Notes under the pieces: generated by a model
The model's database searches: none
What the model was told of the DNA's origin: nothing
Seen by the model: the letters and a program-made list of their open reading frames with translations, nothing else
Position numbers and translations under genes: made by a program
NCBI GenBank assembly: GCA_947650365.1
Contig: CANTAL010000021.1
Span: 806,001-870,000 of the forward strand
Reading direction: 5' to 3'
Origin: Chamaelirium japonicum
Taxonomy: Eukaryota; Streptophyta; Magnoliopsida; Liliales; Melanthiaceae
DNA: 64,000 nucleotides
Shown here: in pieces, positions 10,260 to 64,000 of the stretch
How the letters are laid out: each line of letters opens with the position of its first letter
How positions within the stretch are numbered: the first letter of the stretch is position 1

Positions 10260-13200
10260 ATTTATTTAATAATTAAATAAATAATTATAATAACGTTGAG
10301 ATGATAATTATAGTAATATTACTTTGATAATCATAATAACGTTGAGATGATACTATTAAGAAGTGGAGTTTTGGAATTTAGATTCTTTCTTACTTCACAC
10401 ATATACCGGTGGCGAATGGACTAGAGCAAGACTTCTTCTTTCTTCTCTCTTCGTTTATGTCTTTTTTCTCTTCTCTCTTCTTCTTTCTCTTCTATCTTTG
10501 TTTCTCTCTATGTTTTCTTCTCTTTTCTGTCTTCGTTTCTCTTTCTCATAGATTGCTTAGGCCCTAAGTTAGCTTACGCTATAAATAATATACAACCCCT
10601 TTAGGGTGTGGCACGTTTGATGGCTTTCTCTTTCTTCCATCTCAAAATACACTATCAACATGAATATATCGAGCCCACCCGACCAGTCACAAGAAAACAG
10701 AAAGAGAAACGAAGATAAAAGAGAGAGAGAAGAGAGAAGAGAACGGAGAGATAAACGAAGAGAGAAGACAGAAGAAGATAGAAGAGAACAGAGAGATAAA
10801 TGAAGAGAGAAAAGAGAAGAAGTCCTACTCAAGTCCATTGGCCATGGGTATAGGTCTAAAATAAGAAAAAATCTAAATTCCAAAACTCTACTTCTCAATA
10901 TTTATACGACCCCTTTAGGGTGGGGCTCATTTGACGGCTCTCTATTTCTCCCATCTCACAACACGTTATTAGCACGAACATATTGAGCCCAGCTGACCAG
11001 TCGCAAGAAAATGGAAAGAGAAACAAAGACAGAAGTGGAGTTTTGGAATTTAGATTTCTTCTTACTTCACACCTATACTCGGGGTCAATGGACTGGAGTA
11101 GGACTTCATCTCTCTTCTCTCTTTTTTTATCTCTATATTCTCTTCTCTCTTCTGTCTTTGTTTCTATCTCCGTTTTCTTATGACTGGTCGGTTGGGCTCG
11201 ACATATTCATGCTGATAGCATATTATGAGATGGGAGAAAAAGAGAGTCGTCTAACGTGCCCCACTCTAAAGGTGTCGTATATTATTTATATGATAAGTAT
11301 TATGAGATAGGAGAATAAGAGAGCCGTCAAACATGCTCCAACCTAAAGAGGTCACATAAATATTGAGAAGTAAAGATTTAGAATTTAGATTCCTTCTTAC
11401 TTTACACCTATACTCGTGGCCAATGGACTGGAGCAGGACTTCTTCTATCTTCCCTTTTCGTTTATCTCTTCGTTATCTTCTCTCTTCTTCTCTTTCTTCT
11501 GTCTTTATTTCTCTCTTTGTTTTTTTCACAATAATATATTAGTTAAATAACATAGAGCAGGACTTTTTCTCTCTTCTCTCTTTGTTTATCTCTTCATTCT
11601 CTTCTCTCTTCTCATAACACGATATCAATACTAACATATCGAGCCCAGCTGACCAGTCACAAGGAAACAGAGACAGAAACAAAGACAGAAGAGAGAGAAG
11701 AAGAGAAAAGAAAATAAAGAGTTAAATGAAGAGAGATGAGAGAAGAAGTCCTATTCCAGTCTATTGGCCATAGGTATAGCTGTAAAGTAAGAAGGAATCT
11801 AAATTCCAAAACTCCACTTCTCAATATTTATACGACCCTTTTAGGGTAGGGCATATTTGACGGCTCTCTCTCTCTCCCATCTCACAACACGTTATCAGCA
11901 CGAATATATCGATCCCAACCGACCAGTCACAAGAAAATGAAGAGAGAAACAAAGACAGAAGAGAGAAGAAGAGAGAAGAGAACGAAGAAATAAACAAAAA
12001 TAGAAGGGAGAAGAATTCCTGCTCCAGTCCAAAACTGTATAGAAGAGACAAAAAAAAAGAGAAGAGAACAGAGAGATAAATGAAGAGAGAAGAAGTCCTT
12101 CTCTAGTCCATTAGCCATGGGTATAGTTGTGAAGTAAGAAGAAATCTAAATTCAAAAACTCTACTTCTATCGTCATTTCTCTCTTCGTTTTCTTGGGACT
12201 GGTCGGATGGGCTCGATATGTTCGTGCGGATAATGTGTTGAGAGATAGGATAAAGAGAGACCCATCAAACATGCCCCACCATAAAGAAGTCGTATAAATA
12301 TTAAGAAGTGGAGTTTTAGAATTTATATTCCTACTTACTTCACACCTATACTCATAGCCAATGGACTGGAGTAGGGCTTCTTCTTTCTTCTCTCTTCATT
12401 TATCTCTCAATTCTCTTCTCTTTTCTTCTCCCTCTTCTTCTCTCTTCTGTCTTTGTTTCTTTCTCCATTTTCTTATGATTGATCGGCTAGGCTCGACATG
12501 TTCGTGCTGATAATGTGTTGTGAGAAGAGAGAAGAAGAGAGAAGAGAACGGAGAGATAAACGAAGAGAGAATAGAGATGAAGTCATGCTCTAGTCTATTC
12601 GTCACGGGTATAGGTATGAAGTAAGAAGGAATCTAAATTCCAAGACTCCATTTCTCAATATTATAATTAAATCTCCATGTTCTCTTCTCTCTTCTCCCAT
12701 GGATTAGGATTTCCTATAGATTATTTAGGCCCTAAGTAAGCTTACCCTATAAATAATATATGACCCCTTTAGGGTGGGGCATATTTGATATCTCTCTCTT
12801 TCTCCTATCTCATAATACGTTATCAGCACGAATATGTCGAGCCCAGACGACCAGTCACAAGAAAATAGAGAGAGAAACGAAGACAAATGAGAGAGAAGAA
12901 GAGAGAAGAGAACGGAGATATAAACGAAGATAGAAGAGAGAAGAAGTCCTGCTCGAGTCCATTGACCACGGGTATAGGTGTGAAAATAAGAAGGAATCAA
13001 AATTCCAAAACTTCACTTCTCAAAAATATAATTAAATCTTTCTATTCTCTTCTCTCTTCTCCTATGGATTAGGGTTTCCCATAGATTGCTTAGGCCCTAA
13101 ACAAGCATACCTTATAAATAATATACAACCCCTTTAGGGTGGGGCACATTTGACGGCGCTCACTTTCTCCTATCTCATAATACGTTCCAGCATGAACATG

Positions 13201-15590
13201 TCGAGCCCAACCGACCAATTACAAGAAAACGGAGAGAGAAATTAAAACAAAAGAGAAAGAAGAAAAGAGAAGAGAACGAAGAGATAAACAAAGAGAGAAG
13301 AGAGAAGAAGTCCTGCTCCAGTCCATTGGCCACAAGTATAGGTGTGAAGTAAGAAGGAATCTTAATTCCAAAACTCCACAAAAGAGAGAGAAGAAGAGAG
13401 AAGAGAATAAAGAGATAAATAAAGAGAGAAAAGAGAACAAGTCCTACTCCAGTCCATTGGCCACGGGTATAGGTGTGAAGTAAGAAGGAATCTAAATTTT
13501 AAAACTCCACTTCTGTCTTCGTTTCTCTCCCCATTTTCTTATGACTGGTCGGATGGGCTCGATATGTTCGTGCTGATAATGTGTTATGAGATGGGAGAAA
13601 GAGAAAGCGTCAAAAATGCCCTACCCTAAAGGGGTCATATATTATTTATAGGGTAAGCTTACTTAGGGCCTAAGCAATCTATGAGAAACCCAAATCCATG
13701 GGATAAGATAGAAGAGAATGGAGAAATAAAAAAAATAGAAGAAAGAAGAAGTCCTGCTCTAGTCCATTGGCCACGGGTATAGGTGTAAAGTTAGAAGGAA
13801 TCTAAATTCCAAAACTCCACTTATATCTTTATTTTCTCTCTGTTTTTTTGTGACTGGTCGGCTGGGCTTGACATGTTCGTGCTGATAATGTCTTGTAATA
13901 TGGGAGAAAGAGAGAGCCATCAAACGTTCCCCATCCTAGGGGGGTCGTATATTATTTATAAGGTAAGATTACTTAGGGCCTATGCAATCGGTAGGAAACC
14001 CTAATCAATATGAGAGATAAAGAAGAGAACGGAGAGATTTAATAATATTATTGAGAAATGAAATTTTGGAATTTAGGTTCCTTCTTACTTCGTACCTATA
14101 CCCGTGGTAAATGGACATAAGCATTACTTCTTCTTTCTTATCTCTTCGTTTATCTCTTTGTTTTCTTCTCACTTCTTCTCTTTTCTCACAACACGTTATC
14201 AGCATGAACATATCGACCCTAATTGACTAGTCGTAAAAAAATGAAGAGATAAACGAAGACAAAAGAGAGAGAAGAAAAAAGAAAAGAACGGAGAGAACGG
14301 AGAGATAAATAAAGAGAGAAGAAAGAAGAAGACTTGTTCCAGTGCATTGGCCACGGGTATAGCCAGTGCATTGGCTACGGGTATAGGTGTAATGTAAGAA
14401 TGAATCAAAAATCCAAAACTCCATTTCTTCATATTTATACGACCCCTTTAAGGTAGGGCACGTTTGATGGCTCTCTCTTTGTCTCATCTCACAACACGTT
14501 ACCAGCACGAACATTTCTAGCTCAACCGACCAGTCACAAGAAAACGGAGAGATAAACAAAGACAGAAGAGAGAAAAAGAGAGAAGAGACCAGAGAGATAA
14601 ACAAAGAGAGAAGAAAGAAGAAGTCCAGCTCTATTCCATTGGCCACGGTATAGGTGTGAAGTAAGAAAGAATCTGATAACGTGTTATAAGATGGGAGAAA
14701 GTGAGAGCCGTCAAATGTGCGCTATCCAAAAGAGGTCGTATTTATTTATGGTTTAAGCTTACTTAGGGCCTAAACAATCTATAGAAAACCCTAATACATG
14801 GAAGAAGAGAGAAAAGCATGGAGAGATTATAATTATATTATTAAGATGTGGAGTTTTGGAATTTAAATTCCTTCTTACTTCACACCTATACCCATGGCGA
14901 ATGGATTGGAGCAGGTCTTCTTCTCTCTTCTCTTTTCATTTATCTCTTTGTTCTCTTCTCACTTCTTCTCTCTTCTCACAATACGTTATCAGCACGAATA
15001 TATCGAGCCTAGCCGATCAGTCACAAAAAAACAAAGAGAAAATGAAGATAGAAGTAAGAGAGAAACGAAGACAGAAGAGAGAGAAGAAGAGGGAAAAGAA
15101 CGGAGAGATAAACAAAGAGAGAAGAGAGAAGAAGTCCTGCTCCAGTCTATTAGCCATGGGTATAGGTGTGAAATAAGAAGGAATCTAAATTCCAAAACTC
15201 CACAAAAGATTGTAAAGAAAAGAGAAGAAAACAATGAGATAAATAAAGAGAGAAGTCTTACTCTAGTTCATTCTCCACCGTTGGATCTCTCCCTTGGAAT
15301 AGGGTTTCCCATATATTTTTTAGGCCCTAAGTAAGCTTACCCTATAATTAATATAAAGGGTAGGGCATTTTTGACGGCTCTCCCTTTCTCCCATCTTACA
15401 ACACGTTATCAGTATAAATATGTCGAGCCCAGCCGTTAAATAATTCATTTATCTCTCCCTTCTCTTCTCTCTTCTCTCTTCTCATAACACGTTATCAGCA
15501 CGAACATGTCAAGCCTAGTCGACTAGTTACAAGAAAACAAAGAGAGTATAGCTGTGAAGTAAGAAGGAATCAAAATTTCAAAACTCCACT
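10260..15590. repeat. Higher-order block P1 (about 5.3 kb)
   Basis: Begins with a doubled edge motif (10,290-10,345), then modules in a fixed order: forward A with GGCCCTAAGTTAG near 10.56 kb, the ATTAGTTAAATAACAT junction at 11.54 kb, forward short units at 10.9 and 11.83 kb, forward A at 12.7 and 13.1 kb, reverse A at 13.65, 13.95 and 14.75 kb, the TTGGAATAGGG variant at 15.29 kb and GCCGTTAAATAATTCATTT at 15.43 kb. The same order recurs at 20.65-26.1 kb and, reversed, at 58.35-63.56 kb. No gene. Confidence 0.8.
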
Positions 15591-18500
15591 ACTCAATATT
15601 TATACGACCCCTTTAGGGTGGGGCATATTTGACGGCTCTCGCTCTCTCCCATCTCACAACACGTTATCAGCACGAACATAACGATCCCAACCGACCAGTC
15701 ATAAGAAAATGGAAATAGAAACAAAGACAAATGAGAGAAGAGAACAGAGACATAAACGAAGATACAAGGGAGAAGAAGTCCTGCTCCAGTCCAAAACACT
15801 ATAGAAGAGAGAGAAGAAAAGAAAAGAAAATAGAGAGATAAATAAAGAGAGAATAGAGAAGAAGTCCTGCTCCAGTCCATTGGCCCGGGTATAGGTGTGA
15901 AGTAGAAGAAATCTAAAATCAAAAACTCTACTTCTGTCTTTATTTTTATCTCTGTTTTCTTGCGACTGGTCAGCTGGGCTCGACATGTTCGTGCTGAAAA
16001 CGTGTTGTGAGATAGGACAAAGGGAGACCCGTCAAACTTGCCCCACCATAAAAGGGTCATATAAATATTAATAAGTGGAGTTTCAGAATTTAGATTCCTT
16101 CTTACTTCACACCTATACCCATGGCCAATGGACTGGAGCAGGGGTTCTTTTCCCTTTATTTATCTCTCCATTCTCTTCTCTCTTCTTCTCTCTTCTATCT
16201 TTGTTTCTCTCTCCGTTTTCTTGTGACTGGTCGGTTGGGCTCGACATGTTCGTGCTAATAATGTGTTGTGAGAAGAGAAAAGAAGAAAGAAGAGAAATGA
16301 GATATAAACGAAGTGAGAATAGAGAAGAAGTCCTGCTCCAGTCTATTCATCACGGGTATAGGTATGAAGTAAGAAGAAATCTAAGTTCAAAAACTCCACT
16401 TCTTAATAATATAATTAAATCTCCCTGTTCTCTTCTCTCATAGATTAGGGTTTTCATAGATTGCTTAGGCCCTAAGTAAGCTTACCCTATAAATAATATA
16501 CGACCCCTTTAGGGTGGGGCATGTTTGACGGCTCTCTTTTTCTCCTATCTTATAATACGTTATCAGTTTGAACAAATCGAGCCCAGCCGACCAGTCATAA
16601 GAAAACGGAGAAAGAAACGAAGACAGAGAAGAGAGAAGAAGAAAGAAGAGAACAAAGATATAAACGAAGATAGAAGATAGAAGAAGACCCGCTTCAGTCT
16701 ATTGGCCACATGTATAGGTGTGAAGTAAGAAGGAATCTAAATTCCAAAACTCCACTTCTCAATAATATAATTTAATCTCTCCATTCTATTCTCTCTTCTA
16801 CTATGGATTAGGGTTTTCCATAGATTGCTTAGGCCCTAAGTAAGCTTACCATATAAATAATATATGACCCCTTTAGGGTAGGGCACGTTTGACAGTGCTT
16901 ACTTTCTTCTATCTCATAATACATTATCAGCATGAACATATCGAGCCCAACCGACCAATTATAAGAAAACAGAGAGAGAAGAAAAGAGAAGAGAATGGAT
17001 AGATAAACAAAGAGAGAAGAGAAAAGAAGTCCTGCTCCAGTCCATTGGCCACAAGTATAGGTGTGAAGTACGAAGGAATCTAAATTCCAAAACTCCACAG
17101 AAAAGAGAGAAGAAGAGAGAAGAGAATAGAGAGATAAATAAAGAGAGAAAAGAGAAGAAGTCCTACTCCAGTACATTGGCCACGGGTATAGGTGTGAAGT
17201 AAGAAGGAATCTAAATTCTAAAACTTCACTTCTGTCTTCGTTTCTCTTTCCGTTTTCATACGATTGGTCGGATAGGCTCGATATTTTCCTACTGATAACG
17301 TGTTTTAAGATAGGAGAAAGAGAAAGCCGTCAAACATGCCCCACCCTAAGTGGTCGTATATTATTTATAGAGTAAGCTTACTTAGGGTCTAAGCAATCTA
17401 TGAGAAACCCTAATCTATGGGAGAAGATAGAAGAGAACAGAGAAATAAATAAAGAGAGAAGAGAGAAGAAATCCTACTCCAGTCCATTGGCCACGGATAT
17501 AGGTGTAAAGTTAGAAGGAATCTAAAATTTAAAACTCCACTTTTATCTTTGTTTCTCTCTTTGTTTTCTTCCGACTGGTCGGCTGGGCTCGACATGTTCG
17601 TACTGATAATGTGTTGTGAGATGGGAGAAAGAGAGAGCCGTCAAACTTTCCCCACCCTAAGGGGGTCGTAATTTATTTATAAGGTTAGCTTACTTAGGGC
17701 TTAAAAAATCTATAGGAAACCCTAATCCATATGAGAGATCAAGAAGATAACGGAAAGATTTAATTATATTATTGAGAAATAGAGTTTTGGAATTTTGGTT
17801 CCTTCTTACTTCATACCTATACCCATGGTAAATGGACATATGCAATACTTCTTCTCTTTTCGTTTATTTTTCCGTTCTCTTCTCTCTTCTTCTCTCTTTT
17901 TACAACAGGTTTTCAGCATAAACACGTCGATCCCAACCGACTATTCGCAAAAAAATGAAGAGAAACGAACACAGAAAAAGGAAAAGAAGAGAAAAAAGAA
18001 CAGAGAGATAAATGAAGAGAGAAGAGAGAAGAAGACCAGCTTCAGTACATTGGCCACAGGTATAGGTGTGAAGTAAGAAGGAATCTGAAATCCAAAGCTT
18101 CACTTTATACGACCCCTTGAAGGTGGGGCATGTTTGACGGCTCTCTCTTTCTCCCATCTAACAACACGTTATCAGCACGAATATTTCGAGCCCAACCGAC
18201 CAGTCACAAGAAATCGGAGAGATAAATAAAGACAGAAGAGATAGAAGAAGAAAGAAGAGACCAGAAAGATAAACGAAGAGAGAAGAGAGGAAGTCCTGCT
18301 CTATTCCATTGGCCACGGGTATAGGTGAGATATAAGAAAGAATCCGATAACGTGTTGTAAGATCGGAGAAAATGAGAGCCGTCAAATATGCCCTATCCAA
18401 AAGGGTCGTATATTATTTATGGTGTAAGCTTACTTAGGGCCTAAGCAATCTATGGAAAACCCTAATCTATAGGAGAAGGAAGAAGAGAACGAAGAGATTA

Positions 18501-19300
18501 TAGTATTATTATTGAGAAGTGGAGTTTTGGAATTTAGATTCCTTCTTACTTCACACCTATACCCATGGGGAATGGATTGGAGCAGGACTTCTTCTCTTTT
18601 CTCTCTTCGTTTATCTCTCTGTTCTCTTTTCTCTTCTTCTCTCTTCTCATAACACGTTATCAGCATGAACATATCGAGCCCAGCCGACCAGTCATAAGAA
18701 AACAAAGAGAGAAACGAAGATAAAAGAGATAGAGAAAAAAAGACAGAAGAGAGATAAGAAGAGAGTAGAGAACGGAAAGATAAATAAAGAAAAAAGAGAA
18801 AAGAAGTCCTTATCCAGTCCATTAGCCATGGCTATAAGTATGAAGTAAGACAGAATTTAAATTACAAAACTCTATAGAAGATTGAGAAGAAGAAAGAAGA
18901 GAACAGAGAGATAAATGATGAGAGAAGAAGTCCTACTCTAGTTAATTATCCAACGTCGGATCTCTCCCTTGGAATAGGGTTTTTTATAGATTGCTTAGGC
19001 CCTAAGTAAGCTTACCCTATAAATAATATAATGGGTGGGGCAAATTTAACGGCTCTCATTTTCTCCTATCTTACAACACGTTATCAGCACGAACATATCA
19101 AGCCCAGCCATTAAATAATTTATTTGTCTCTCTGTTCTCTTCTCTCTTCACTCTTCTTACAACACGTTATCAGCATGAACATGTCGAGCCCAGCAGACCA
19201 GTCATAAAAAAACAGAGAGAAAACTAAAGACAAAAGAGAGAGAAGAAGAAGAAAGAGAACAAAGAGATAAACAAAGAGAGAAGAAGTCCTACTCTAGGCC
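15591..19300. repeat. Higher-order block P2: tandem partial copy of 11.8-15.6 kb
   Basis: Repeats the 11.83-15.59 kb order at an offset of about 3.7 kb: the short unit at 15.60 kb (11.83), the reverse A/forward B-C junction at 16.26 kb (12.53), AAAGTTAGAAGG at 17.51 kb (13.80), TTGGAATAGGG at 18.97 kb (15.29) and the GCC(A/G)TTAAATAATT site at 19.10 kb (15.43). The doubled GTGCATTGGC of 14.35 kb is single here. Mirror copy in the right arm about 54.85-58.35 kb. Confidence 0.8.
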
Positions 19301-20085
19301 ATTGGCTACAGGTATAGCTGTGAAGTAAGAAGAAATCTAAATTCCAAAAACCTACTTCTCAATAATATAATTAAATCTCTCCATTCTTTTCTCTCTTCTC
19401 CTATGGATTAAGGTTTCCCATAGATTGCTTAGGCCCTAAGTAAGCTTAACCTATAAATAATACACGATCCTTTTAGGGTGGGGCATATTTGACGACTCTC
19501 TCTTTCTTCCATCCCACAATATGTTATCAGTACGAATATATCAAGCCCAGCCGACTAGTCGCAAGAAAATAGAGAGAGAGATAAAGATAGAGAAGAGAAA
19601 AGAAGAGGGAAGAGAATGGAGAAATAAACAAAGTTAGAAAAGAGAAGTCCTGCTCCAGTCCATTGGCCACGGATATAGGTGTGAAGTAAGAAAGAATCTA
19701 AATTCCAAAACTCCACTTCTCAATAATATAATTAAATCTCTCTATTCTCTTCTCTATTCTCCCATGGAATTGGGTTTCCTATAGATTACTTAGGCCCTAA
19801 ATAAGCTAATCCTATAAATAATATACGACCCTTTTAGGGTGGGGCACATTTGACGGCTCTTACTTTCTCCCTTCTCATAACACTTTATCAGCATGAACAT
19901 GCCAAGGCCAACCGACCAGTTACAAGAAAACGGAGAGAGAAATGAAGACAAAAGAGAGAAAATAAAAGAGAAGAAAACGGAGAAATAAACAAAGTGAGAA
20001 GAAAGAAGAAGTCCTGCTCCAGTCTATTGGCCACAAATATAGGGTGAAGTAAGAAGGAATCTAAATTTCAAAACACCACTTCACA
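19301..20085 (+). repeat. Forward repeat units between P2 and P3
   Basis: Two full forward units in tandem with TATA near 19.45 and 19.81 kb; module C runs into AATATAATTAAATCTCTCC before the next telo-box. This is the cleanest head-to-tail A-B-C-A-B-C array, with a unit of about 370 bp. It ends at the edge motif (20,087). Confidence 0.75.
19641..19735 (+). repeat. Representative module C
   Basis: GTCCTGCTCCAGTCCATTGG, CCACGGATATAGGTGTGAAG, TAAGAAAGAATCTAAATTCC, then AAAACTCCACTTCTCAATA. This block of about 75 bp is the most conserved non-TATA part of every unit. (G)GAATCTAAATTCC is a near palindrome. It carries no open frame or RNA-gene signature. Confidence 0.8.
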
Positions 20086-20690
20086 ATAGTATTATCTCAA
20101 CGTTATTATGATTATCATAGAAATATTACTATTAATTTTTTAATTAAATTAATTATTTATTTAATTATTAAATAATTAAATAATTTAATAATTAAATTTT
20201 TAGTAAAATAATTAATTAAATATATTTATTATAGTATAAATAGATATTGAATTATTTAAATAAAATGAACTATTACGAAGTGGAGTTTTTGGAATTTAGA
20301 TTCCTTCTTACTTCACACATATACCCGTGGCCATAGACTGGACCAGGACTTCTTCTCTCTTCATTTCTCTCTCTGTTCTATTCTCTCTTATTCTTTCTCT
20401 TCCGTGGAGTTTCGGAATTTAGATTTCTTCTTACTTCACACCTATACCCATGACGAATGGACTGGAGCACGACTTCTTCTCTCTTCTTTCTCAATATTTA
20501 TTTAATTAGCTTACTTTTTATTATTAATATTAAAAAAATAAATAACTAGATAATTAAATAATTTAATTAATTAATTTTTTTACTAAAAGCTTAATAAAAA
20601 ACTATTAAAATTATTAAATTATTTAAAAATTAAATAAATGATTATAGTAATATTACAATGATAATCATAATAATTTTAAGATGATACTAT
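20086..20690. repeat. AT-rich block bounded by inverted edge motifs
   Basis: The edge motif starts at 20,087 (AATAGTATTATCTCAACG) and recurs inverted near 20,655-20,690 (ATAATCATAATAATTTTAAG). Between them lie two AT blocks around two reverse module-C pieces (20,275-20,500). Mirror partner at 52,485-53,095, which has the same two-block layout. Confidence 0.8.
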
Positions 20691-23600: not shown

Positions 23601-23637
23601 GTGGGTGCAAATTTTGGCCGAAAGCCTCACAAATAGT

Positions 23638-23885
23638 GGGACCCACCAGCCCTGCCTGTGGGGTCTACAAAGACGACAACGGGACCCACTAGTTTTGCCT
23701 GTAGGATCTACAAAGATGATAGCGGGACCCACCAGCCCTGCCTGTGGGGTCCATCGAGGTAACGACAGGACCCACCTGCCCTGCCTGTGGGGTCCACCGA
23801 GGCGATAGTGCGACCCACCAGTCCTGCCTGTGGGGTCTACCAAAATGACGGCGAGACCCATCAACCCCGTCGGGATTCAGATGAC
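23638..23885 (+). repeat. 43-bp minisatellite in left TIR
   Basis: Five tandem 43-bp units start at 23,638, 23,681, 23,724, 23,767 and 23,810, followed by a partial unit at 23,853. Each begins G(G/C)GACCCACC and contains GCCTGTGGGGTC. The period is constant with only substitutions between units. The opposite orientation lies at 24,300-24,473. Confidence 0.9.
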
Positions 23886-24299: not shown

Positions 24300-24473
24300 G
24301 TGGGTCCCGTTATCATCTTTGTGGACCCCACAAGCAGGGCTGGTGGGTCCCGCTGTCATCTTTGTAGATCCCACAGGCAGTGATAGTGGGTCCCGCTGTT
24401 GTCTTTGTGGATCCCACAGGCAGGGCTGGTGGGTCCTGCTATTTGTGAGGCTTTCGGCCAAAATTTACACCCA
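24300..24473 (-). repeat. 43-bp minisatellite in right TIR
   Basis: Three 43-bp units (24,300, 24,343, 24,386) and a partial one are in inverse orientation to those at 23,638-23,885, ending in the shared terminal sequence. With the left TIR they would form a long GC-rich hairpin stem. Confidence 0.88.
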
Positions 24474-52200: not shown

Positions 52201-52484
52201 ATAGGAGAAAGAAAGAGCCATCAAACATGCCCTACCCTAAAAAATGTTGTATATTATTTATAGGGTAAACTAACTTAGGGCCTAAATAATCTATGGGAAA
52301 GAGAAATGAAGACAGAAGAGAGAAGAAAATAGAAAAAAATAGAGAGAGAAATGTAGATAGAAGAGAAAGAAGAAGAGAGAAGTGAACGGAGAGATAAATG
52401 AAGAGAGAAGAAGTCTTGCTCCAATCAATTCTCCATGGGTATAGGTGTAAAGTAAGAAGGAATACAAATTCCAAAACTCCACTT
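49277..52484. repeat. Higher-order block P3, mirror, inner part
   Basis: Reverse A at 49.48 and 49.84 kb, short units at 50.28, 50.68 and 51.17 kb, ATGTTATTTAACTAATATATG at 50.97 kb (mirror of 21.90 kb), doubled module A ends at 51.23-51.32 kb and 51.85-51.97 kb, and reverse GGTAAACTAACTTAGGGCC at 52.26 kb (mirror of 20.90 kb). Pyrimidine tracts of unusual length lie at 51.97-52.15 kb. No gene. Confidence 0.75.
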
Positions 52485-53095
52485 CTCAATAGTATCATCT
52501 TAACATTATTATGATTATCATAGTAATATTACTTTAATCATTTATTTAATTTTTAAATAATTTATTAATTTAAATAGTTTATTAATTAAGTATTTAGTAA
52601 AATAATTAATTAATTAAATTATTTAATTATCTAGTTATTTAATTATTTTTTTAATATTAATAATAAAAAGTAAACTAATTAAATAAATATTGAGAAAGAA
52701 GAGAGAAGAAGTCGTGCTCCAATCCATTCATCATGGGTATAGGTGTGAAGTAAGAAGGAATCTAAATTCCGAAACTCCACGGAAGAGAAAGAATAAGAGA
52801 GAATAAAACAGAGAGATAAATGAAGAGAGAAGAAGTCCTGCTCCAATCTATTAGCCACGGGTATATGTGTTAAGTAAGAAGGAATCTAAATTCCAAAAAC
52901 TCCACTTCGCAATAGTTTATTTTATTTAAATAATTCAATATCTATTTATACTATAATAATTATATTTAATTAATTATTTTATTAAAAACTTAATTATTAA
53001 ATTATTTAGTAATGAAATAAATAATTAATTTAATTAAAAAATTTATAGTAACATTACTATGATAATCATAATAACCTTGATATAAAACTATTGGG
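52485..53095. repeat. AT-rich block bounded by inverted edge motifs (right arm)
   Basis: Edge motif at 52,488 (AATAGTATCATCTTAAC) and inverted near 53,045-53,090 (ACTATGATAATCATAATAACC), enclosing two AT blocks around module-C pieces at 52.69-52.92 kb. Mirror of 20,086-20,690. Confidence 0.8.
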
Positions 53096-56000
53096 AAGTG
53101 ATATTTTGAAATTTAGATTCCTTCTTACTTCACACCTATACTTGTGGCCAATGGACTGGAGCAGCACTTCTTCTCTCTTCTCACTTCGTTTATTTCTCCG
53201 TTTTCTTCTCTCTTCTTTTCTCTCTTTTGTCTTCATTTCTCTCTCCTTTTTCTTGTAACTGGTCGGTTGGCCTTGGCATATTCGTGCTGATAACGTATTG
53301 TGAGAAGGGAGAAAGTAAGAGCCTTTAAATGTCCCCCACCCTAAAAGGGTCGTAAATGGAGAGATTTAATTATATTATTGAGAAGTGGAGTTTTGGAATT
53401 TTGATTCTTTCTTACTTCACACCTATATCTGTGGCCAATGGACTAGAGCAGGACTTCTTCTCTTTTCTAACTTCGTTTATTTCTCCATTCTCTTTCCCCT
53501 TCTTTTCTCTTCTCTGTCTTCATCTCTCACTCTGTTTTCTTGCGATTGGTCGGCTGGGCTCGATATATTCATACTGATAACATATTGTGGGATGGAAGAA
53601 AGAGAAAGCCGTCAAATATGCCCCACCCTAAAAGGGTCGTATATTATTTATAGGTTAAGCTTACTTAGGGCCTAAGCAATCTATGGGAAACCTTAATCCA
53701 TAGGAGAAGAGAGAAAAGAATGGAGAGATTTAATTATATTTTTGAGACTTGGGGTTTTGGAATTTAGATTCCTTCTTACTTCACACCTATACCCCTAGCG
53801 AATGGACTGGGGCAGGACTTCTTCTCTCTTTTTTCTTCGTTTATCTCTCTTTTATCTTCTCTCTTCTCACAATATATTATCAGTATGAATATGTCCAGCC
53901 CAACCGACCAGTCGCAAGAAAACGGAGAGAGAAATGAAGACAAAAGAGGGAGAAGAAGAGAGAAAAGAATAGAGAGATAAATAAAGAGAGAAGAGAGAAG
54001 AAGCCCTGCTCCAGTGCATTGGCCATGGGTATAGGTGTAAAGTAAGAAGGAATCTAAATTTCAAAACTCCACTTCTCAATATTTATATAAACCCTTTATG
54101 GTGGGGCACGTTTGACATCTCTATCTTTCTCCCATCTAATTACATGTTATCGGCACGAACATGTCGAGCCCAGCCGACCAGTCGCAAGAAAACGGAGAGA
54201 GAAAGGAAGACAGAAGTGGAGTTTTAGATTTTAGATTCCTTCTTACTTCACACATATACTCGTGGTCAATGGACTAGAGCAGGTCTTCTTCTCTCTTTAC
54301 TCTTTATTTCTCTTTCCATTCTTTTCTCTCTTCTTCTCTCTCTTCTGTGGAGATTTGGAATTTAGATTCCTTCTTACTGCACTATTATACCCTTGGCCAA
54401 TGGACTAGAGTAGGACTTTTTCTATATTCTATCTTCGTTTAACTCTCTGTTATCTTCTCTCTTCTTCTCTTTCTTCTGTCTTTGTTTCTCTCTCTATTTT
54501 CTTGTGACTGGTCGACTGGGCTCGACATGTTCGTGCTGATAACGTGATGTGAGATGGAAGAAAGAGAGAGCTATCAAACATGCCCCATCCTTAAGGGGTC
54601 ATATAAATATTAAGAAGTAGAGTTTTGGAATTTAGATTCCTTCTTACTTCACAGCTATACCTGTAGCCAATGGCCTGGAGTAGGACTTCTTCTCTCTTTG
54701 TTTATCTCTTTGTTCTCTTTCTTCTTCTTCTCTCTCTTTTGCCTTTATTTTTCTCTCTCTTTTTTTATGACTGGTCTGCTAGGCTCGACATATTCGTGCT
54801 GATAACGTATTGTAAGAAGAGTGAAGAGAGAAGAGAACAGAGAGATAAACGAATTATTTACCGGCTGGGCTGGATATGTTCGTGCTGATAATGTGTTGTA
54901 AGATAGGAGAAAGAGAGAGCCGTTAAATTTGCCCCACCCATTATATTATTTATAGGGTAAGCTTACTTAGGGCCTAAGCAATCTATGGAAAACCCTATTC
55001 CAAGGGAGAGATCCGACGGTGGATAATAAACTAGAGTAGGACTTCTTCTCTTATTATTTATCTCTTTATTTTCTTCTTTCTTCTTCTCAATATTCTGTAG
55101 AGTTTTGGAATTTAAATTCCGTCTTACTTCACACCTATACCCGTGGCCAATGGACTAGAGAAGGACTTCTTTTCTTTTTTTCCTTTATTTATCTCTCCAT
55201 TCTCTTCTCTCTTCTTCTCTCTCTTCTGTTTTTGTTTCTCTCTCTTTTATCTTTATTTCTCTCTTCATTTTTTTATGACTGGTCAGCTGGGCTCGACATG
55301 TTCATGCTGATAACGTGTTGTGAGAAGAGAGAAGAAGAGAGAAGAGAACGGAGAGATAAACAAAGAGAGAAGAGAGAAGAAGTCCTGCTCCAATCATTCC
55401 CCATGGGTATAGGTGTGAAGTAAGAAGAAATCTAAATTTCAAAACTCCACTTCTCAATAATATAACTATAATCTCTTCGTTCTCTTCTCTCTTCTCCCAT
55501 GGATTAGGGTTTTCCACAGATTTCTTAGGCCCTAAGTAAGCTTACACCATAAATAATATACGACCCCTTTTGGATAGGGCATGTTTGACGGCTCTCATTT
55601 TCTCCGATCTTACAACACGTTATCGGATTCTTTCTTATATCTCACCTATACCTGTGGGCAATGGAACAGAGCAAGACTTCTTCTCTCTTCTCTCTTCGTT
55701 TATCTTTCCGGTATCTTCTTTCTTCTTCTATCTCTTCTGTCTTTATTTATCTCTCCGTTTTCTTGTGACTGGTCAGTTTGGGCTCGAAATATTTATGCTG
55801 ATAACGTATTGTGAGATAGGAGAAAGAGAGCCGTCTAACGTGCCCTACCTTAAAAGGGTCGTATAAAGTGAAGGTTTGGATTTTAGATTCCTTCTTACTT
55901 CACACCTATACCTATGGCCAATGTACTAAAGCAGGTCTTCTTCTCTTTTCTCTCTTTATTTATCTCTCCGTTCTTTTTTCCCTTCTTTTCCCTTTTCTGC

Positions 56001-58350
56001 ATTCGTTTCTCTTTATTTTTTTACGACTGGTCGGTTGGGATCGACATGTTTATACTGAAAACATGTTGTGAGAAGAGAGAAGAAGATAGAAGAGAACGAG
56101 GAGATAAACAAAAAAAGAAGAACTTTTGCTCATGTCCATTTACCATGGGTATAGGTATGAAGTAAGAAGGAACCAAAATTCCAAAACTCTATTTCTCAAT
56201 AATATAATTAAATCTTTCCGTTATCTTCTTAATCTCTTACATGGATTAGGGTTTCCTATAGATTGCTTAGGCCCTAAGTAAGCTAACCTTATAAATAAAT
56301 TACGATCCCCTTAGGGTGGGAAAAGTTTGACGGCTCTCTATTTCTTCCATCCCACAACACATTATCAGCACGAATATATCGAGCCCAGTCGACCAGTCAC
56401 AAGAAAATGAAGAGAGAAACAAAGACAGTAGTGGAGTTTTAAAATTGATATTCCTTCCAACTTTACACCTATACTCGTGGCCAATTGACTGGAGCTGGAC
56501 TTCTTCTCTCTTCATTTATTTCTCTGTTCTCTTCTATCTTCTCCCATAGATTAGGGTTTCTCATAGATTGCTTAGACCCTAAGTAAGCTTACTCTATAAA
56601 TAATATACGACCCCTTTAGGGTAGGGCATGTTTGATGGCTTTCTCTTTTTCCTATCTCAAAGCACGTTATCAGCAGGAAAATATCGAGCCCATCCGACCT
56701 GTCGTATGAAAACGGAAAGAGAAACAAAGACAGAAGTGAAGGTTTGGAATTTAGATTCCTTCTTACTTCACACCTATACCCGTGGCCAATGGACTGGAGT
56801 AGGACTTATTGTCTTTTCTTTCTTTATTTATCTCTCTATTCTCTTCTCTAATCTTCTCTCTCTTCTGTGGAGTTTTGGAATTTAGATTCATTCTTACTTC
56901 ACACCTATACTTGAGGCCAATGGACTGGAGCAGGACTTCTTTTCTCTTCTCTCTTTGTTTATTTATTTGTTCTCTTCTCTTTTCTTCTCTCTCTGTTTTC
57001 TTATAATTGGTCGGTTGGGCTCGACATGTTCGTACTGATAACGTATTATGAGATAGAAGAAAGTGAGCACCATCAAACGTGTCCTACCCTAAAGGGGTCA
57101 TATATTATTTATATGGTAAGCTTACTTAGGGCCTAAGCAATCTATGGGAAACCCTAATCCATAGGTGAAGAGAGAAAAGAATGGAGAGATTTTATTATAT
57201 TGTTGAGAAGTAGAGTTTTGGAATTTAGATTCCTTCTTACTTCACACCTATACCCGTGGCCAATGGACTAAAGCAAGTCTTCTTCTATCTTATATCTTCG
57301 TTTATATCTCCATTCTCTTCTCTCTTCTTCTCTCTCCTCTGTCTTCGTTTCTTTCTCCGTTTTCTTACGACTGGTCGGTTGGGCTCAACTTGTTCATACT
57401 GATAACATATTATGAGATAGGAGAAAGAGAGAGCCGTCAAACGTGCCCCACCCTAAAGGGGTCGTATATTATTTATAGGGTAAGCTTACTTAGGGCCTAA
57501 GCAATCAATGGAAACCCTAATCCATGAGAGAAGAGAGAAGAGAACGGGGAGATTTAATTATATTATTGAGAAGTGGAGTTTTGGAACTTAGATTTCTTCT
57601 TACTTCATACCTATCCCGTGACGAATGGACTGGAGCAGGACTTCTTTTTTATTTTCTCTTCGTTTATATATTCGTTCTCTTCTTTCTTCTTTTCTCTTCT
57701 CAGAATACATTATCAGCACGAACATGTCGAGCCCAGCCAACCAGTCACAAGAAAACGGAGAGAGAAATAAAGAGAGAAGAGAAAAGAAGAGAGAAGAGAA
57801 TGAAGAGATAAATGAAGGGAGAAGAACCCCTGCTCCAGTCCATTGGCCACGGGTATAGGTGTGAAGTAAGAAGAAATCTAAATTCTAAAACTCCACTTCT
57901 TAAATTTGTATGACCCCTTTATGGTGGGGCACGTTTGACGAGTCTCCCTTTGTTCTATCTCACAACACGTTATCAGCACGAACATGTCGAGCCCAGCTGA
58001 CCAGTCGCAAGAAAACGGAGAGAGAAATGAAGACAGAAGAGGAGTTTTTGATTTTAGATTTCTTTTACTTCACACCTATACCCGGGCCAATGGACTGGAG
58101 CAGGACTTCTTCTCTATTCTCTCTTTATTTATCACTCTGTTTTCTTTTCTTTTCTTATCTATCTTCTATAGTGTTTTAGACTGGAGCAGGACTTCTTCTC
58201 CCTTCTATCTTCGTTTATCTCTCTGTTCTCTTCTCTCTTTTGTCTTTGTTTCTCTCTCCATTTTCTTATGACTGGTCAGCTGGGATCGATATGTTTGCGC
58301 TGATAACATATTGTGAGATGGGAGAGAGTGAGAGCCATCAAATATACCCC
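53096..58350. repeat. Right-arm mirror of P2 and flanking units
   Basis: Reverse A at 53.64 kb, GAATTATTTACCGGCTGGG at 54.85 kb, CCCTATTCCAAGGGAG at 55.0 kb, forward A at 55.55, 56.26 and 56.61 kb, TTCCTTCCAACTTTACACC at 56.46 kb and reverse A at 57.11 and 57.47 kb. The 53.1-54.85 kb part is about 0.8 kb longer than its left-arm counterpart, so it holds additional units. No gene. Confidence 0.75.
55318..55385 (+). repeat. Representative purine-only tract (module B)
   Basis: Nearly uninterrupted G/A text of GAGAAGAGAGAAGAAG type with few pyrimidines. Dozens of equivalents occur throughout, alternating with pyrimidine tracts on the same strand. Such mirror-symmetric purine/pyrimidine tracts can form triplex (H-DNA) structures; this is known chemistry, and its occurrence here is inference. 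Confidence 0.7.
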
Positions 58351-61300
58351 ACCCTAAAGGGGTCGTATAAATATTGAGTAGTGGAGTTTTGAAATTTTGA
58401 TTCCTTCTTACTTCACAACTATACTCTCTTTGTTTTCTTGTAACTGGTCGACTGGGCTTGACATGTTCGTACTGATAACATGTTATGAGAAGAGAGAAGA
58501 GAGAAGAGAAGGGAGAGATAAATGAATTATTTAACGGCTGGGCTCGACATGTTTATACTGATAATGTGTAATAAGATGGGAGAAAGAAAGAGCCATCAAA
58601 TATGCCCTACCCTTTATATTATTTATAGGGAAAGTTTAATTAGGGCCTAAACAATCTATGGGAAACCCTATTCCAAGGGAGAGATCCGACGGTGGATAAT
58701 GAACTAGAGTAAGACTTCTTCTCTCTTTATTTATTTTATTGTTTTCTTCTCTCTTTTTTACAGTCTTCTATGGAGTTTTGGAATATAGATTCCTTCCTAC
58801 TTCAGACCTATACCCGTGGCCAATAGACTGGAGCATGACTTCTTTTCTCTTCTCTCTTCGTTTATCTCTCTGTTCTTTTCCCTCTTCTTCTCTTTCTTCT
58901 GTCTTTATTTCTCTCTTACTTCTATCTTCATTTTCTCTTTTTTTTTTGTGACTGGTCGGCTGGGCTCGACATATTTGTGCTGATAACGTGTTGTGAGAAG
59001 AGAGAAGAAAAGAGAAAAAAACAGACAGATAAATGAAGAGAGAAGAGAGAAGAAGTCCTGCTCCAATCCATTCACCATGGGTATAGGTGTGAAGTAAGAA
59101 GGAATCTAAATTCCAAAACTCCACTTCTTAATAATATAATTATAATCTCTCCATGCTCTTCTCTCTTCTTCCATGTATTAGGGTTTTCTATAGATTGCTT
59201 AGGCCCTAAGTAAACTTATACCATAAATAATATACGACCTCTTTTGGATGGGGCACGTTTGACGGCTCTCTCTTTCTCCCATCTTATAATACATTATCAG
59301 ATTCTTTCTTACCTCACACCTATACAGTGGCCAATAGAATAGAGCTGGACTTCTTTTCTCTTCTCTCTTTGTTTATCTCTCTGGCCTCTTCTCTCTTTTT
59401 CTATCTCTTTTGTCTTTGTTTATCTCTCCGTTTTCTTCTGATTGGTTGGTTGAGCTCGAAATATTTGTGCTGGTACTGTGTTGTGAGATGAGACAAAGAG
59501 CGAGCCGTCAAACGTGCCCTACCTTAAAGGTGTCGTATAAATATTGAGAAGTGGAGTTTTGGATTTTAGATTCATTATTACATCACACCTATACCTGTGG
59601 CCAATGCACTGGCTATACCCGTGGCCAATGCACTGGAGCAAGTCTTCTTCTCTCTTCTTTCATCATTTATCTCTCCGTTCTCTCCGTTCTTTTCTCTCTT
59701 CTTCTCTCTCTTCTGTCTTTGATTATCTCTTCGTTTTTTTATGACTGGTCGGTTAGGGTCGATATGTTCATCTGATAACGTGTTGTGAGAAAAGAGAAGA
59801 AGAGAGAAGAAAATAGAGAGATAAACGAAGAGATAAAAGAGAAGAAGTCATGCGTATGTCCATTTACCAAGGGTATAGGTACGAAGTAAGAAGGAACCTA
59901 AACTCCAAAATTTTATCTCTCAATAATATAATTAAATCTCTCCGTTCTCTTCTTTATCTCTCATATGGATTAGGGTTTCCTATAGATTGCTTAGGCCCTA
60001 AGTAACCTTACCTTATAAATAATATACGACCTCCTTAGGATAGGGAACGTTTGCCGGCTTTCTCTTTCTCCCATCTTACAAGACATTATCAGCACAAACA
60101 TGTCAAGCCCAGCCGACCAATCACAAAAAAACAGAGAGAAAATAAAGACATAAGTGGAGTTTTGGAATTTAGATTCCTTCTAACTTTACACCTATACCCG
60201 TGGCCAATGGACTAGAGCAGGACTTCTTCTCTCTCCTGTCTTCTTTTATTTCTCCGTTCTCTTCTATCTTCTTCCATGGATTTGGGTTTCTCATAGATTG
60301 CTTAGGCCCTAAGTAAGCTTACCCTATAAATAATATATGACCCCTTTAGGGTAGGGCACATTTGATGCTTTCTCTTTCTCCCATCTCATAACATGTTATC
60401 AGCACGAACATATCGAGCCCATCCGACCAGTCGTAAGAAAATAGAGACAGAAACAAAGACAGAAGTGGAGTTTTGAAATTTAGATTCCTTCTTACTTCAC
60501 ACCTATACTCATGGCCAATGGACTGGAGTAGGACTTCTTCTCTTTTCTCTCTTTATTTATCTCTCTATTCTCTTCCCTCTTCTTCGCTCTCTTCTGAGGA
60601 GTTTTGGAATTAAGATTCCTTTACTTCACACCTATACTTGTGGACAATGAACTAGAGCAGGACTTTTTCTCTCTTCTCTCTTTGTTTATCTCTTCGTTCT
60701 CTTCTCCTTTCTTCTCTCTCTTTTGTTTTTATTTCTCTCTCTGTTTTCTTGTAATTGGTCGGTTGGGCTCAATATGTTCGTACTGATAACGTATTATGAG
60801 ATAGGAGAAAGTGAGCACCGTCAAATGTGCCCCACCCTAATGGGGTCGTATATTATTTATAAGGTACGCTTGCTTAGAGCCTAAGCAATCTATGGGAAAC
60901 CCTAATTCATGGAAAAAGAGAGAATAGAATAGAAAGATTTAATTATATTATTGAGAAGTGGAGTTTTGGAATTTTGATTCCTTCTTATTTCACACCTATA
61001 CCCGTGGTCAATGGACTCGAGCAAGACTTCTTTATTCTTCTATCTTCGTTTATATCTCTGTTCTCTTCTCTCTTCTTCTCTCTCCTCTGTCTTCGTTTCT
61101 CTCTTCATTTTCTTGTGACTGGTCGGCTGGGCTCGATATATTCGTGCTGATAATGTGTTATGAGATAGAAGAAAGGGAGAGCCATCAAATATGCCCTAAC
61201 CTAAAGGGGTTGTATATTATTTATAGGGTAAGCTTACTTAGGGCCTAAGCAATCTATGGGAAATCCTAATCCATGGGAGAAGAGAGAAGCGAACAAGGAG

Positions 61301-63509
61301 ATTTAATTATAATATTGAGAAATAGAGTTTTGGAATTTAGATTCCTTCTTACTTTATACCTATACCCGTGACGAATGGACTAGAGCATGACTTCTTATTT
61401 ATTCTCTCTTTGTTTATCTCTTCGTTCTCTTCTCTCTTCTTCTCTCTTCTTCTCTCTTCTCATAACACGTTATCAGCATGAACATATCGAGCCCAACCGA
61501 CCAGTCGTAAGAAAACAGAGAAAGGAACAAAGACAGAAGAGAGAAGAAGAGGGAGAAGAAAAGAGAAGAGAATGAAGAGAAAAATGAAGAGAGAAGAGAG
61601 AAGAAGCCCTACTCTAGTCCATTAGCTACGAGTATAGGTGTGAAGTAAGTAGGAATCTAAATTCTAAAACTCCACTTCTCAATATTTAAATGACTCCTTT
61701 ATGGTGGGGCACGTTTGACGGGTCTCTCTTTGTCCTTTCTCATAACACATTATCCACACGAACACGTCGAGCCCATCCGACCAGTCCCAAGAAAACGGAG
61801 AGAGAAAAGAAGACAGAAGTAGAGGTTTTGAATTTAGATTTCTTCTTACTTCACACCTATACCCGTGGCCAATGGACTGGAGCAGGACTTCTTTTCTCTT
61901 CATTTATCTCTCTGTTCTCTTCTCTTTTTTTTTCTCTCTTCTATGCAGTTTAGGACTGGAGCAGGAATTCTTCTCCCTTCTATCTCCGTTTATTTTTTCG
62001 TTCTCTTCTCTCTTATTCTCTCTTCTGACGTTGTTTCTTTCTTTGTTTTCTTGTGGCTGGTCGATTGGGATCGATATGTTCGTGCTGATAATGTGTTGTA
62101 AGATAGGAGAGAGAGAGAGCTATCAAATATGCACTACCCTAAAAGGGTCGTATAAATATTGAGAAGTGGAGTTTTGGAATTTAGATTCCTTCTTACTTCA
62201 CAGCTATACCCATGGCCAATGGACTGGAATAGGACTTCTTCTCTCTTCTCTCTTCGTTTAACTCTTCATTCTTTGATTCTGTCTCTGTTTCCTTGTGACT
62301 GGTCAGCTGGGCTCGATATGTTTGTATTGATATCGTGTTATGAGAAAAGAGGAGAATAAAGAGATAAACAAAGAGAGAAGTGAGAAGAAGTCCTGCTCTA
62401 TGTTATTTAACTAATATATGATTGTGAAAAAAACAGAGAGAGAAACGAAGACAGAAGAAAGAGAAGAAGAGAGAAGATAACGGAGAGATAAACGAGAAAA
62501 AAAAAAGAGAAGAAGTCATGCTCCAGTCCATTGGCCACGACTATAGGTGTAAAGTAAGAAGGAATCTAAATTCTAAATCTCTACTTCTTAATATTTATGC
62601 GACCACTTTAGGGTGGGGCATGTTTGACGGCTCTCTTATTCTCCCATCTCACAATACTTATCATATAAATAATATACGACACCTTTAGATAGAAGTGAGA
62701 AGAAGAGAGAAGTGAGAAGAAGAGAGAAGAGAATAGAGAGATAAACGAAGGGAGAAGAGAGATAGAGTCCTACTCCAGTCCATTGACCACGAGTATAGGT
62801 GTAAAGTAAGAAGAAATCGAAATTCGAAATTCCACTTCTATCTTCGTTTCTCTTTTTGTTTTTTTGCGACTGGTCGGCTGGGCTCAACATGTTCGTGCAG
62901 ATAACATGTTGTATGATGGGAGAAAGAGAGAGCCGTCAAACGAGCCACACCCTAAAGGGGTCGTATAAATATTAAGAAGTAGAGTTTTGGAATTTAGATT
63001 TCTTCTTATTTCACACCTATACCCGTGGCCAATGGATTGGAGCAGGACTTCTTCTCTTTTCTCTCTTTATTTATCTCTCTGTTCTCTTCTATCTTCTTCT
63101 GTCTTCTCTCTTCGTTTATCTCTCCGTTCTCTTCTCTTTTCTTCTTTTTCTTCTATCTTCGTTTCTCTCTCCGTTTTCTTGTGACTGGTTGGGTGGGCTC
63201 GATATGTTCATGTTAATAATGTATTTTGAGATGGGAGAAAGAGAGAGCCATCAAACATGCCCCACCCTAAAGGGGTTGTATATTATTTATAGTGTAAGCT
63301 AACTTAGAACCTAAGCAATCTATGAAAAAGAGAAACGAAAACAGAAAAGAGAAGAAAACGTAGAGAGAAACGAAGATAGAAAAGAAAGAAGAAGAGAGAA
63401 GAAAATGAAGAGATAAATGAAGAGAGAAGAAAGGAGAAGTCTTGCTCTAGTCCATTCGCCACGGGTATAGGTGTGAAGTAAGAAAGAATCTAAATTCCAA
63501 AACTGCACT
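58351..63509. repeat. Right-arm mirror of P1
   Basis: GAATTATTTAACGGCTGGG at 58.52 kb, CCCTATTCCAAGGGAG at 58.67 kb, the doubled GTGGCCAATGCACTGG at 59.60-59.64 kb, CTTCTAACTTTACACC at 60.18 kb, forward A at 60.0 and 60.32 kb, reverse A at 60.87 and 61.23 kb, ATGTTATTTAACTAATATATG at 62.40 kb and reverse GTGTAAGCTAACTTAGAACC at 63.29 kb. Order is the exact inverse of 10.3-15.6 kb. Confidence 0.8.
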
Positions 63510-64000
63510 TCTCAATAGTATCATCTCAACGTTATTATGATTATCATAGTAATATTACAATAATTATTTAATTAATTATTAAATAATTTAATAATTAAGT
63601 TTTTAGTAAAATAATTAATTAATTTAATTATTTAATTATTAAGTTATTTAATTATTTTTTTAATATTAACAATATAAAGTAAACTAATTAAATAAATATT
63701 AAGAGAGAAGAGAGAAGAAGTCCTACTCCAGTCCATTCGCCAAGGGTATAGGTATGAAGTAAGTAGGAATCTAGATTCCAAAACTCCAAAGAAAATTGAA
63801 AAGAAGAGAAAAGAAAACAGAGGGATAAATGAAGAAAGAAGAAGTCATACTCCAGTCCATTGGCCACGGGTATAGGTGTGAAGTAAGAAGGAATCTAAAT
63901 TTCTAAAACTCCACTTCATAATAGTTCATTTTATTTAGATAATTCAATAACTTTTTATACTATAATAAATATATTTAATTAATTATTTTACTAAAAACTT
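63510..64000. repeat. AT-rich block at right window edge
   Basis: Edge motif at 63,515 (ATAGTATCATCTCAACG) and AT-rich DNA to about 63.69 kb, two forward module-C pieces (63.69-63.92 kb), then a second AT block cut by the window. The layout copies 52.49-53.0 kb, not the left-arm flank near 10 kb, so a further P-type unit probably continues beyond the window. Confidence 0.75.

Follow-up and report, generated by a model that had tools for sequence, protein, structure and literature searches.

Giant palindromes are usually met either as new and unstable disease alleles or as old ones that gene conversion has kept similar. Here we describe a giant non-coding palindrome in a 64,000-nucleotide stretch of the Chamaelirium japonicum genome (C33:806001-870000, hereafter the window; coordinates below zero or above 64,000 continue its numbering into the flanks). 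Among the described systems that come closest to it, the TmSat1 and TmSat2 macro-dyads of Tribolium madens are, in the portions of that report drawn on here, runs of a simple monomer, extending up to 75 kb, whose orientation flips at thousands of sites in putative (peri)centromeres (PMC13081366). Like them, the present case consists of inverted satellite blocks of tens of kb that are many times repeated, have conserved inversion sites and are non-coding; unlike them, it is a complex mosaic of at least 118 kb mirrored position by position, with its axis in a retrotransposon fragment that carries a templated insertion, and it has 34 centres among 40 scored candidates, many of them near scaffold ends. 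For human fold-back inverted duplications, the sections used here give spacers of 766-70,466 bp and microhomologies of 2-8 bp and mention template insertions (PMC3907307); a short unduplicated spacer and a few bases of junction microhomology recur in our palindrome, but those cases are patient rearrangements whereas this one is old and exists in many copies. The palindromes of the willow W and of mammalian sex chromosomes are likewise large (PMC7023750, PMC8981503). Those of the willow W, however, according to the parts of the account considered, contain genes, lie on a sex chromosome and show evidence of gene conversion, with more than 99% identity among shared 20-kb arms and 96-99% in the outer arms (PMC7023750), whereas the window yielded no intact gene and the present arms, at 92.7% identity, are diverging freely. 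The subtelomeric satellites of potato and common bean also form repeat arrays at chromosome ends, in these cases tandem ones, and the beginnings of the two abstracts mention no large palindrome (PMC3276127, PMC3797529). Among the open-licence PMC texts listed, no title or abstract beginning described a plant palindrome of such a kind outside sex chromosomes, which is not to claim its absence from print. The present palindrome has the junction features of fold-back duplications and resembles satellite macro-dyads, and it differs from both in age, size and traceability.

Aligned with its own minus strand, the window gave a stepwise anti-diagonal in which 10,270-35,631 mirrors 63,597-36,188. The left-arm pieces 10270-11281, 11265-19364, 19821-21399, 21120-24961, 25422-27929, 28088-29033, 29030-34499 and 34491-35631 pair, respectively, with 63597-62596, 62689-54608, 53357-51771, 51781-47920, 48029-45522, 45523-44595, 44291-38823 and 37328-36188 at BLAST identities of 88-94% (92.5% over 24,159 MAFFT columns for the pieces inside the window). 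Over all aligned pieces, including those beyond the window, identity is 92.7% over 38,203 columns, a Kimura two-parameter distance (K2P) of 0.077. The anti-diagonal partner is the best non-self match for 46 of the 54 1-kb segments that start from 10,001 to 63,001, at 89-95.5% identity; in the remaining eight (11,001; 19,001; 38,001; 44,001; 51,001; 53,001; 54,001; 63,001) either another repeat comes first or the partner is absent in one arm. The off-diagonal matches listed lie at ~73-88%, except for a local palindrome at 51.2-52.0 kb (89.7%), and in a control the window compared with its own reversed, uncomplemented sequence matched at best over 737 bp at 70%. The giant palindrome in the window is thus confirmed as real. 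A preliminary description had claimed a large and diverged palindrome, poor in genes and built of repeat modules around a short asymmetric centre, and the stepwise anti-diagonal about a centre at 35,632-36,187 bears this out; its coordinate sums of 73.97, 72.88 and 73.32 kb agree with computed sums of 73,954-73,972, 72,881-72,901 and 73,321, and the self dot-plot that it proposed contains the anti-diagonal, leaving the palindrome unrefuted. The term 'pure repeats' suits most of the arms, but the centre and the innermost 1.1 kb on each side of it are of retrotransposon gag-like origin. Scans of the window returned no tRNA gene and no Rfam match at gathering score, and its 17 open reading frames (ORFs) of at least 120 aa, the longest (168 aa) lying in the gag-like remnant, gave nothing functional beyond such remnants.

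The assembly comprises 1.52 Gb in 3,253 contigs. Twelve scaffolds (C1 to C12) measure 137 to 70 Mb while C13 has only 3.9 Mb, and C3 starts with CCCTAAA repeats; the genome therefore looks like that of a plant with 12 chromosome pairs. Contig C33 (2.1 Mb) parallels the first 2 Mb of scaffold C4. Three palindrome centres lie in the same order at 0.51, 0.84 and 1.70 Mb of C33 and at 0.52, 0.89 and 1.72 Mb of C4, probes from C33 1.10 and 1.45 Mb match C4 in the same orientation at 100% and 98%, and the C4 counterpart is 98-100% identical to C33 where compared, yet shows structural differences of its own. From this collinearity C33 looks like the other haplotype of the C4 start, and the palindrome copies on the two are probably alleles; the number of loci is therefore lower than the number of centres. 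The opposite orientation of one segment had suggested a 0.83-Mb inversion between C33 and C4; an inversion of that extent was discarded, as C33:1.100 and C33:1.450 Mb are collinear with C4. A smaller segment of at least 22 kb between these probes remains in opposite orientation (C33:1260186-1282598 on the minus strand against C4:1292616-1315045 on the plus strand), which is either an inversion polymorphism or an assembly orientation error.

The ends at 10,260 and 63,560 (~53 kb) given in the preliminary description did not hold. With two retrotransposon-like inserts included, the symmetry extends over at least 118 kb, from -19,509 to 98,500, the limit being that of the fetched sequence, and the ends quoted mark an indel step. 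With the flanks added, -194..10,132 mirrors 80,659..69,979. The jump at 10.13-10.27 kb, earlier claimed as the left edge, is a ~6.45-kb deletion in the haplotype of the window. C4 retains the piece, matching window 8,167-10,266 (98.8%) and 10,258-11,693 (98.1%) with ~6.45 kb between them, and this piece mirrors window 69,984-62,596 at 90.4%. Because 9 bp are shared at the scar, a microhomology-mediated loss is suggested. Further out, a young long terminal repeat (LTR) retrotransposon of 13.3 kb interrupts the right arm at window ~80,660-93,943 (C33:886,660-899,943); its 785-bp LTRs are 99.87% identical, the target-site duplication GAGAC is visible, and the C4 match ends at its insertion point (query 1-962). 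Provisional limits of -194 and 80,659 were rejected, since symmetry resumes beyond the inserts: -1,349..-193 pairs with 95,087..93,944 and -2,922..-2,210 with 95,798..95,086 past the young element, and beyond a retrotransposon-like insert in the left arm -19,018..-17,597 pairs with 97,213..95,794 and -19,509..-19,013 with 98,500..97,993. The known arm measures ~49 kb (right arm without the young insert), and some of the steps from arm to arm come close, by eye, to the sizes of modules.

Because genome searches scored no more than the top candidates (the best 40 in most DNA searches and the best 21 in that with the outer right arm), copy numbers are lower bounds, and arms absent from the lists may exist. 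With window 35,500-36,300 as the query and the best 40 of 718 first-look candidates scored, 34 proved to be palindrome centres: 24 full-length, one truncated at the start of the right arm (C4:2.18 Mb), seven sharing a deletion of query 650-725, and two (C7:82.32 and C3:97.30 Mb) sharing another deletion, seen as two pieces that overlap by 35 bp. The other six, at 88%, are dispersed loci that carry just the spacer and a single arm. Of the centres, 20 lie on seven of the 12 scaffolds (C1 1, C2 4, C3 3, C4 5, C7 4, C10 2, C12 1) and 14 on unplaced contigs. They fall into three subfamilies: S1, to which the window belongs, with 10 loci at 95-100% and a common ~1.5-kb left-arm deletion; S2, with 15 loci at 92-94% plus the two deletion variants; and S3, the seven with the 650-725 deletion. 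Among 40 loci scored across the S1 deletion site, 10 are contiguous over 1-2101, and among the remaining 30 the match stops at 1587-1593 in 26 and at 1247 in three, with one partial match ending at 1593. Of the 20 centres on scaffolds, 14 have a scaffold end at a distance of 0.5-7 Mb. The S3 copies among them, four in number, are 1.17, 1.57, 1.24 and 1.55 Mb from the nearest end (C3, C2, C12 and C4, respectively) and share one orientation relative to it. The centres are distributed distally, and the term subtelomeric in its strict sense does not fit all copies. In S2, a 10.4-kb stretch is common to the copies on C10 and C274 at 96.8% identity; ~9.6 kb of this stretch lies beyond the arms, a 181-bp satellite included, and the copied unit therefore exceeds the palindrome. 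With 34 centres among the 40 candidates scored, the palindrome is not unique, and, as against the instability that the preliminary description attributed to such structures, this one has persisted while its arms came to differ by K2P 0.077 and its copies came to lie on seven chromosome scaffolds.

The 181-bp satellite adjoins S2 palindromes at C274:1-40000 and C10:58837001-58907000 and forms one array of ~40 copies on C10. A regular tandem array of palindromes was considered and not borne out: among the contigs listed, C274 alone has two centres at a spacing of 53,959 bp, while on C10 the spacer is repeated at ~59.8 kb but the two centres in the list are 1.2 Mb apart. Segments of the left (L) type, 95-96% like the left arm of the window and with no palindrome centre nearby in the scored lists, occur at C3:649-672 kb, C12:69.19-69.21 Mb, C14:665-687 kb, C36:1.39-1.42 Mb, C43:1.02-1.04 and 1.79-1.83 Mb, and C80:1.21-1.23 Mb; they look like arms that lack a partner, and several have matching distances to scaffold ends.

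The axis of the palindrome lies in a decayed retrotransposon gag-like fragment, presumably Ty3/gypsy-like. In Pfam, the inner left arm matches the CCHC zinc knuckle (PF00098, E-value 2.6e-05, 24.5 bits against a cut-off of 20.8) and, weakly and below the cut-off of 24.3, an aspartyl protease (PF13650, E-value 0.0037, 18.4 bits); the 168-aa ORF of the inner right arm had no Pfam match at an E-value of 0.1. Junctions were read in 12 of the 34 palindromes (eight S1, three S2 and one S3, on 10 contigs or scaffolds), and in all 12 the sequence runs ...GAGAATCT, then a ~35-base copy of a sequence that lies 93 bp deeper in the spacer, and then the spacer. Two dispersed parental loci, L053 on C8 and L054 on C9, match the palindrome only from window 35,665-35,667 rightwards, and match each other beyond this point. 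The C8 locus carries the template only, and the best match of the filler to this locus is 28/35, with at most 23 in 2,000 shuffled fillers; no junction pattern of this kind was seen in the C9 locus. The 35-bp overlap in the two centres on C7 and C3 is what would be expected for a loss between the filler and its template. Three features of fold-back inverted duplications are present, namely a 521-bp unduplicated spacer, 4-bp microhomology (ATCT) with a templated insertion, and parental non-inverted sequence past the junction (C8, C9). One common junction in the 12 centres read fits a single fold-back template switch with one extra local jump, which we infer to have occurred once, before the copies spread.

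The later history can be followed in the arms. In the window, 66 of 70 500-bp bins lie at 91-96% and the other four at 84-90, and none of the 70 is near-identical or otherwise a conversion tract. A tree of the inner arms (IQ-TREE, HKY+G; 26 arm sequences from 12 palindromes and two parental loci; pieces of at most 1,143 bp, with short rows of 783 bp for the right arm of C33:1.70 Mb and of 882 and 422 bp for the parental loci) placed the S1 left arms and the S1 right arms in separate clades, each with 100% support, and likewise the two sets of S2 arms; the two S3 arms also stand apart. Arms of the same position are therefore related by descent across copies, and the two arms of a copy have not been homogenised; the near-star form of the tree suggests that the six arm lineages radiated at about the same time. 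The layered identities (84-85% for an internal 3.77-kb duplication, 92.7% for the arms, ~96-99.6% for S1 inner arms and 98-100% for C33 against C4) provide relative ages, the internal duplication being, by its identity, older than the palindrome. At substitution rates of 0.65-1.3e-8 per site per year, a K2P of 0.077 would mean that the arms split ~3 to 6 million years ago.

We consider it quite probable that this is an old, singly born non-coding palindrome that spread inside large, mostly distal repeat blocks, being neither an assembly artefact nor kept by gene conversion. During repair or replication a strand copying one way would have folded back by ~0.5 kb and copied the other way, generating the inverted duplication in one event. 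Larger blocks would then have carried the palindrome along as they were copied between chromosomes, through ectopic recombination or break-induced replication, giving rise to at least three subfamilies. In the copies aligned, the arms thereafter diverged evenly, with no trace of conversion between them, and suffered erosion by indels, larger deletions and retrotransposon insertions. The stability is perhaps owed to spacer, divergence and heterochromatin. Several observations weigh against this account. Six of the 20 placed centres are 11-20 Mb from the nearest scaffold end (C10 2, C2 3, C1 1), and the outer right arm was recovered at 93% or more in only six of the 10 S1 loci among the 21 candidates scored. 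The alignment of long arms covers just the window, C33:1.70 Mb, C10 and part of C274, and of these four copies C33:1.70 Mb has lost its long inverted arm; elsewhere the comparison covers the centre alone. The symmetry runs to the limit of the fetched sequence, so that ~49 kb is not necessarily the arm length made at birth; the near-star tree of S1, S2 and S3 arms gives no order for the first copies; and the 521-bp spacer falls below the human range of 766-70,466 bp, as given in the sections used (PMC3907307).

Other explanations have to be set against the same evidence. Ordinary satellite modules do occur almost equally in both orientations in the window (75/67, 66/64 and 81/81 landmark matches), but their juxtaposition by chance has virtually no probability given that the anti-diagonal match is the best in 46 of 54 segments, at 89-95.5% against ~73-88% for the others listed, and in order over tens of kb. 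A false inverted repeat made by a fold-back (hairpin) read or a misjoin might be suspected: long-read fold-back chimeras give near-perfect inverted repeats, blocks of repeats assemble poorly, and this genome is in 3,253 contigs. These arms, however, differ at ~7.3% of positions. With the identical junction and templated insertion in all 12 centres read, on 10 contigs or scaffolds, with centres on many contigs, and with a C4 counterpart that is 98-100% identical where compared and yet structurally distinct, such an artefact is extremely unlikely. The scattered places of the 34 centres would suit a giant transposon of the foldback type, with the long inverted arms as terminal repeats, but no common ends appear in the 70 kb fetched: at C10 the symmetry stops ~21.3 kb from the centre (where an insertion could hide a continuation), while at C33 it passes 55 kb to the left and 62 kb to the right. 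The shared flank of C10 and C274 and the shortness of the ORFs in the window (at most 168 aa among the 17 of at least 120 aa) are also unfavourable to the transposon, which we regard as very unlikely.

A palindrome maintained by conversion or selection, of the mammalian Y or willow W type, or a macro-dyad needed for chromatin or chromosome-end structure would suit the recurrence of the dyad organisation on many contigs. Macro-dyads of Tribolium satellites have conserved inversion sites in the portions of the report cited (PMC13081366), and inverted repeats can feed small interfering RNA (siRNA), as the part of the literature on Mu killer considered here indicates (PMC3440606). Yet the arms of the window, at 92.7% over 38,203 columns, contain no conversion tracts, left and right arms keep separate lineages across the 12 copies compared, and some copies have lost most of one arm (at C33:1.70 Mb ~43 kb is gone relative to the right arm of the window) or, at C4:2.18 Mb, have the centre truncated. 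A palindrome of the sex-chromosome type is further contradicted by the lack of genes in the arms of the window, where the longest ORF, of 168 aa, belongs to a gag-like remnant. We hold maintenance by conversion or selection, like a structural macro-dyad role, to be unlikely.

On the preferred reading of a single birth followed by passenger spread, the palindrome is most likely without a function that depends on its sequence. Effects, if any, would stem from its inverted structure, through double-stranded RNA precursors of siRNA, heterochromatin or local rearrangement; by analogy, silencing via hairpin RNA, the role proposed for Mu killer in the portion of that text used (PMC3440606), or a chromatin role like that of the Tribolium macro-dyads is possible. 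As it is old and unconverted, its birth junction, even divergence and later erosion are all readable, and its many copies serve as replicates. It makes testable how a non-coding palindrome of more than 100 kb survives, candidate factors being the 521-bp spacer, the 7% divergence and heterochromatin, and how chromosome ends exchange large blocks.

A landmark search hints at a second, larger dyad, opposite in polarity and centred on hairpin-prone sequence. Arm segments face opposite ways on C5, C6, C7 and C77, with minus-strand matches at 753, 747, 817 and 762 kb and plus-strand matches at 932, 925, 995 and 941 kb, respectively, which makes an inverted landmark pair ~89 kb each side of a point 0.84-0.91 Mb from the scaffold or contig starts. 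A 450-bp probe (L059), an AT-rich imperfect hairpin (68.7% over 71-366), matches the four midpoints within 33 bp and lies 1.6 kb off on C44, and a further probe on C6 matches at 281 and 602 kb (-) and at 1,198 and 1,508 kb (+). This evidence consists of landmarks and is post hoc, the probe having been taken at an arbitrary C33 position for another purpose. Against a second dyad, the probe comes from a common repeat (3,148 first-look candidates; 101 local matches in the fetched C33 region), and the two wider pairs on C6 centre near 0.895-0.900 Mb, ~60 kb from the 0.836-Mb centre; the matching regions of C5, C6, C7, C77 and C44 are probably homologous blocks and hence not independent. It is a tentative and rather doubtful proposal that chromosome ends harbour two kinds of giant dyad, the gag-centred palindrome of at least 118 kb and a second one reaching perhaps to ~0.6 Mb per side on C6, and that recurrent birth at hairpin-prone sequences together with end-to-end exchange is a main mode of subtelomere growth; if true, there would be megabase mirror-image chromosome ends.

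Table 1. Features of the palindrome in window coordinates
Feature	Position	Strand	Remarks
Left arm (L lineage), part in window	1..35631	+	Minus-strand self-alignment; reaches leftwards to at least -19,509
Scar of ~6.45-kb deletion, 9 bp common to both sides	10258..10266	+	Deletion in window, not in C4
3.77-kb direct duplication, left arm	11774..19220 (11774-15545, 15546-19220)	+	84.8%; direct self-matches
AT-rich block, left arm (GC 0.126)	30001..31000	.	Mirror 42,001-43,000 (GC 0.171)
Site of ~1.5-kb deletion, left arm	34490..34491	.	Right arm retains piece 37329-38822; common to 10 S1 copies
Inner left arm, decayed gag-like fragment (1,141 bp)	34491..35631	+	94.1% to 37328-36188
ATCT microhomology, predicted first switch point	35628..35631	+	Shared with 35721-35724 beside template
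Templated insertion (filler), ~35 bp	35632..35666	+	Same junction in 12 of 12 centres read
Asymmetric centre: ~35-bp templated insertion, then 521-bp spacer	35632..36187	.	Spacer continuous with right arm in two fetched dispersed parental loci
Template of insertion, 93 bp downstream in spacer	35725..35759	+	27/35 identical in window
Inner right arm, same gag-like fragment inverted	36188..37328	-	Self-alignment
Right arm (R lineage), part in window	36188..64000	-	Self-alignment; reaches at least 98,500, broken by young LTR retrotransposon at ~80,660-93,943
Small inverted duplication, right arm	51176..51970	.	89.7%; coordinate sum 103146
Mirror of 3.77-kb duplication, right arm	54752..62209 (54752-58424, 58425-62209)	-	83.9%

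Smaller self-palindromes are nested in the arms, at window 4,347-7,044 and 51,176-51,970 (79-90%). GC-rich 43-bp tandem repeats at window 23,633-23,867 and 24,297-24,440 look by eye like the 43-bp repeats in the LTRs of the young element at ~80,660-93,943, and these islands may be old LTR remnants.

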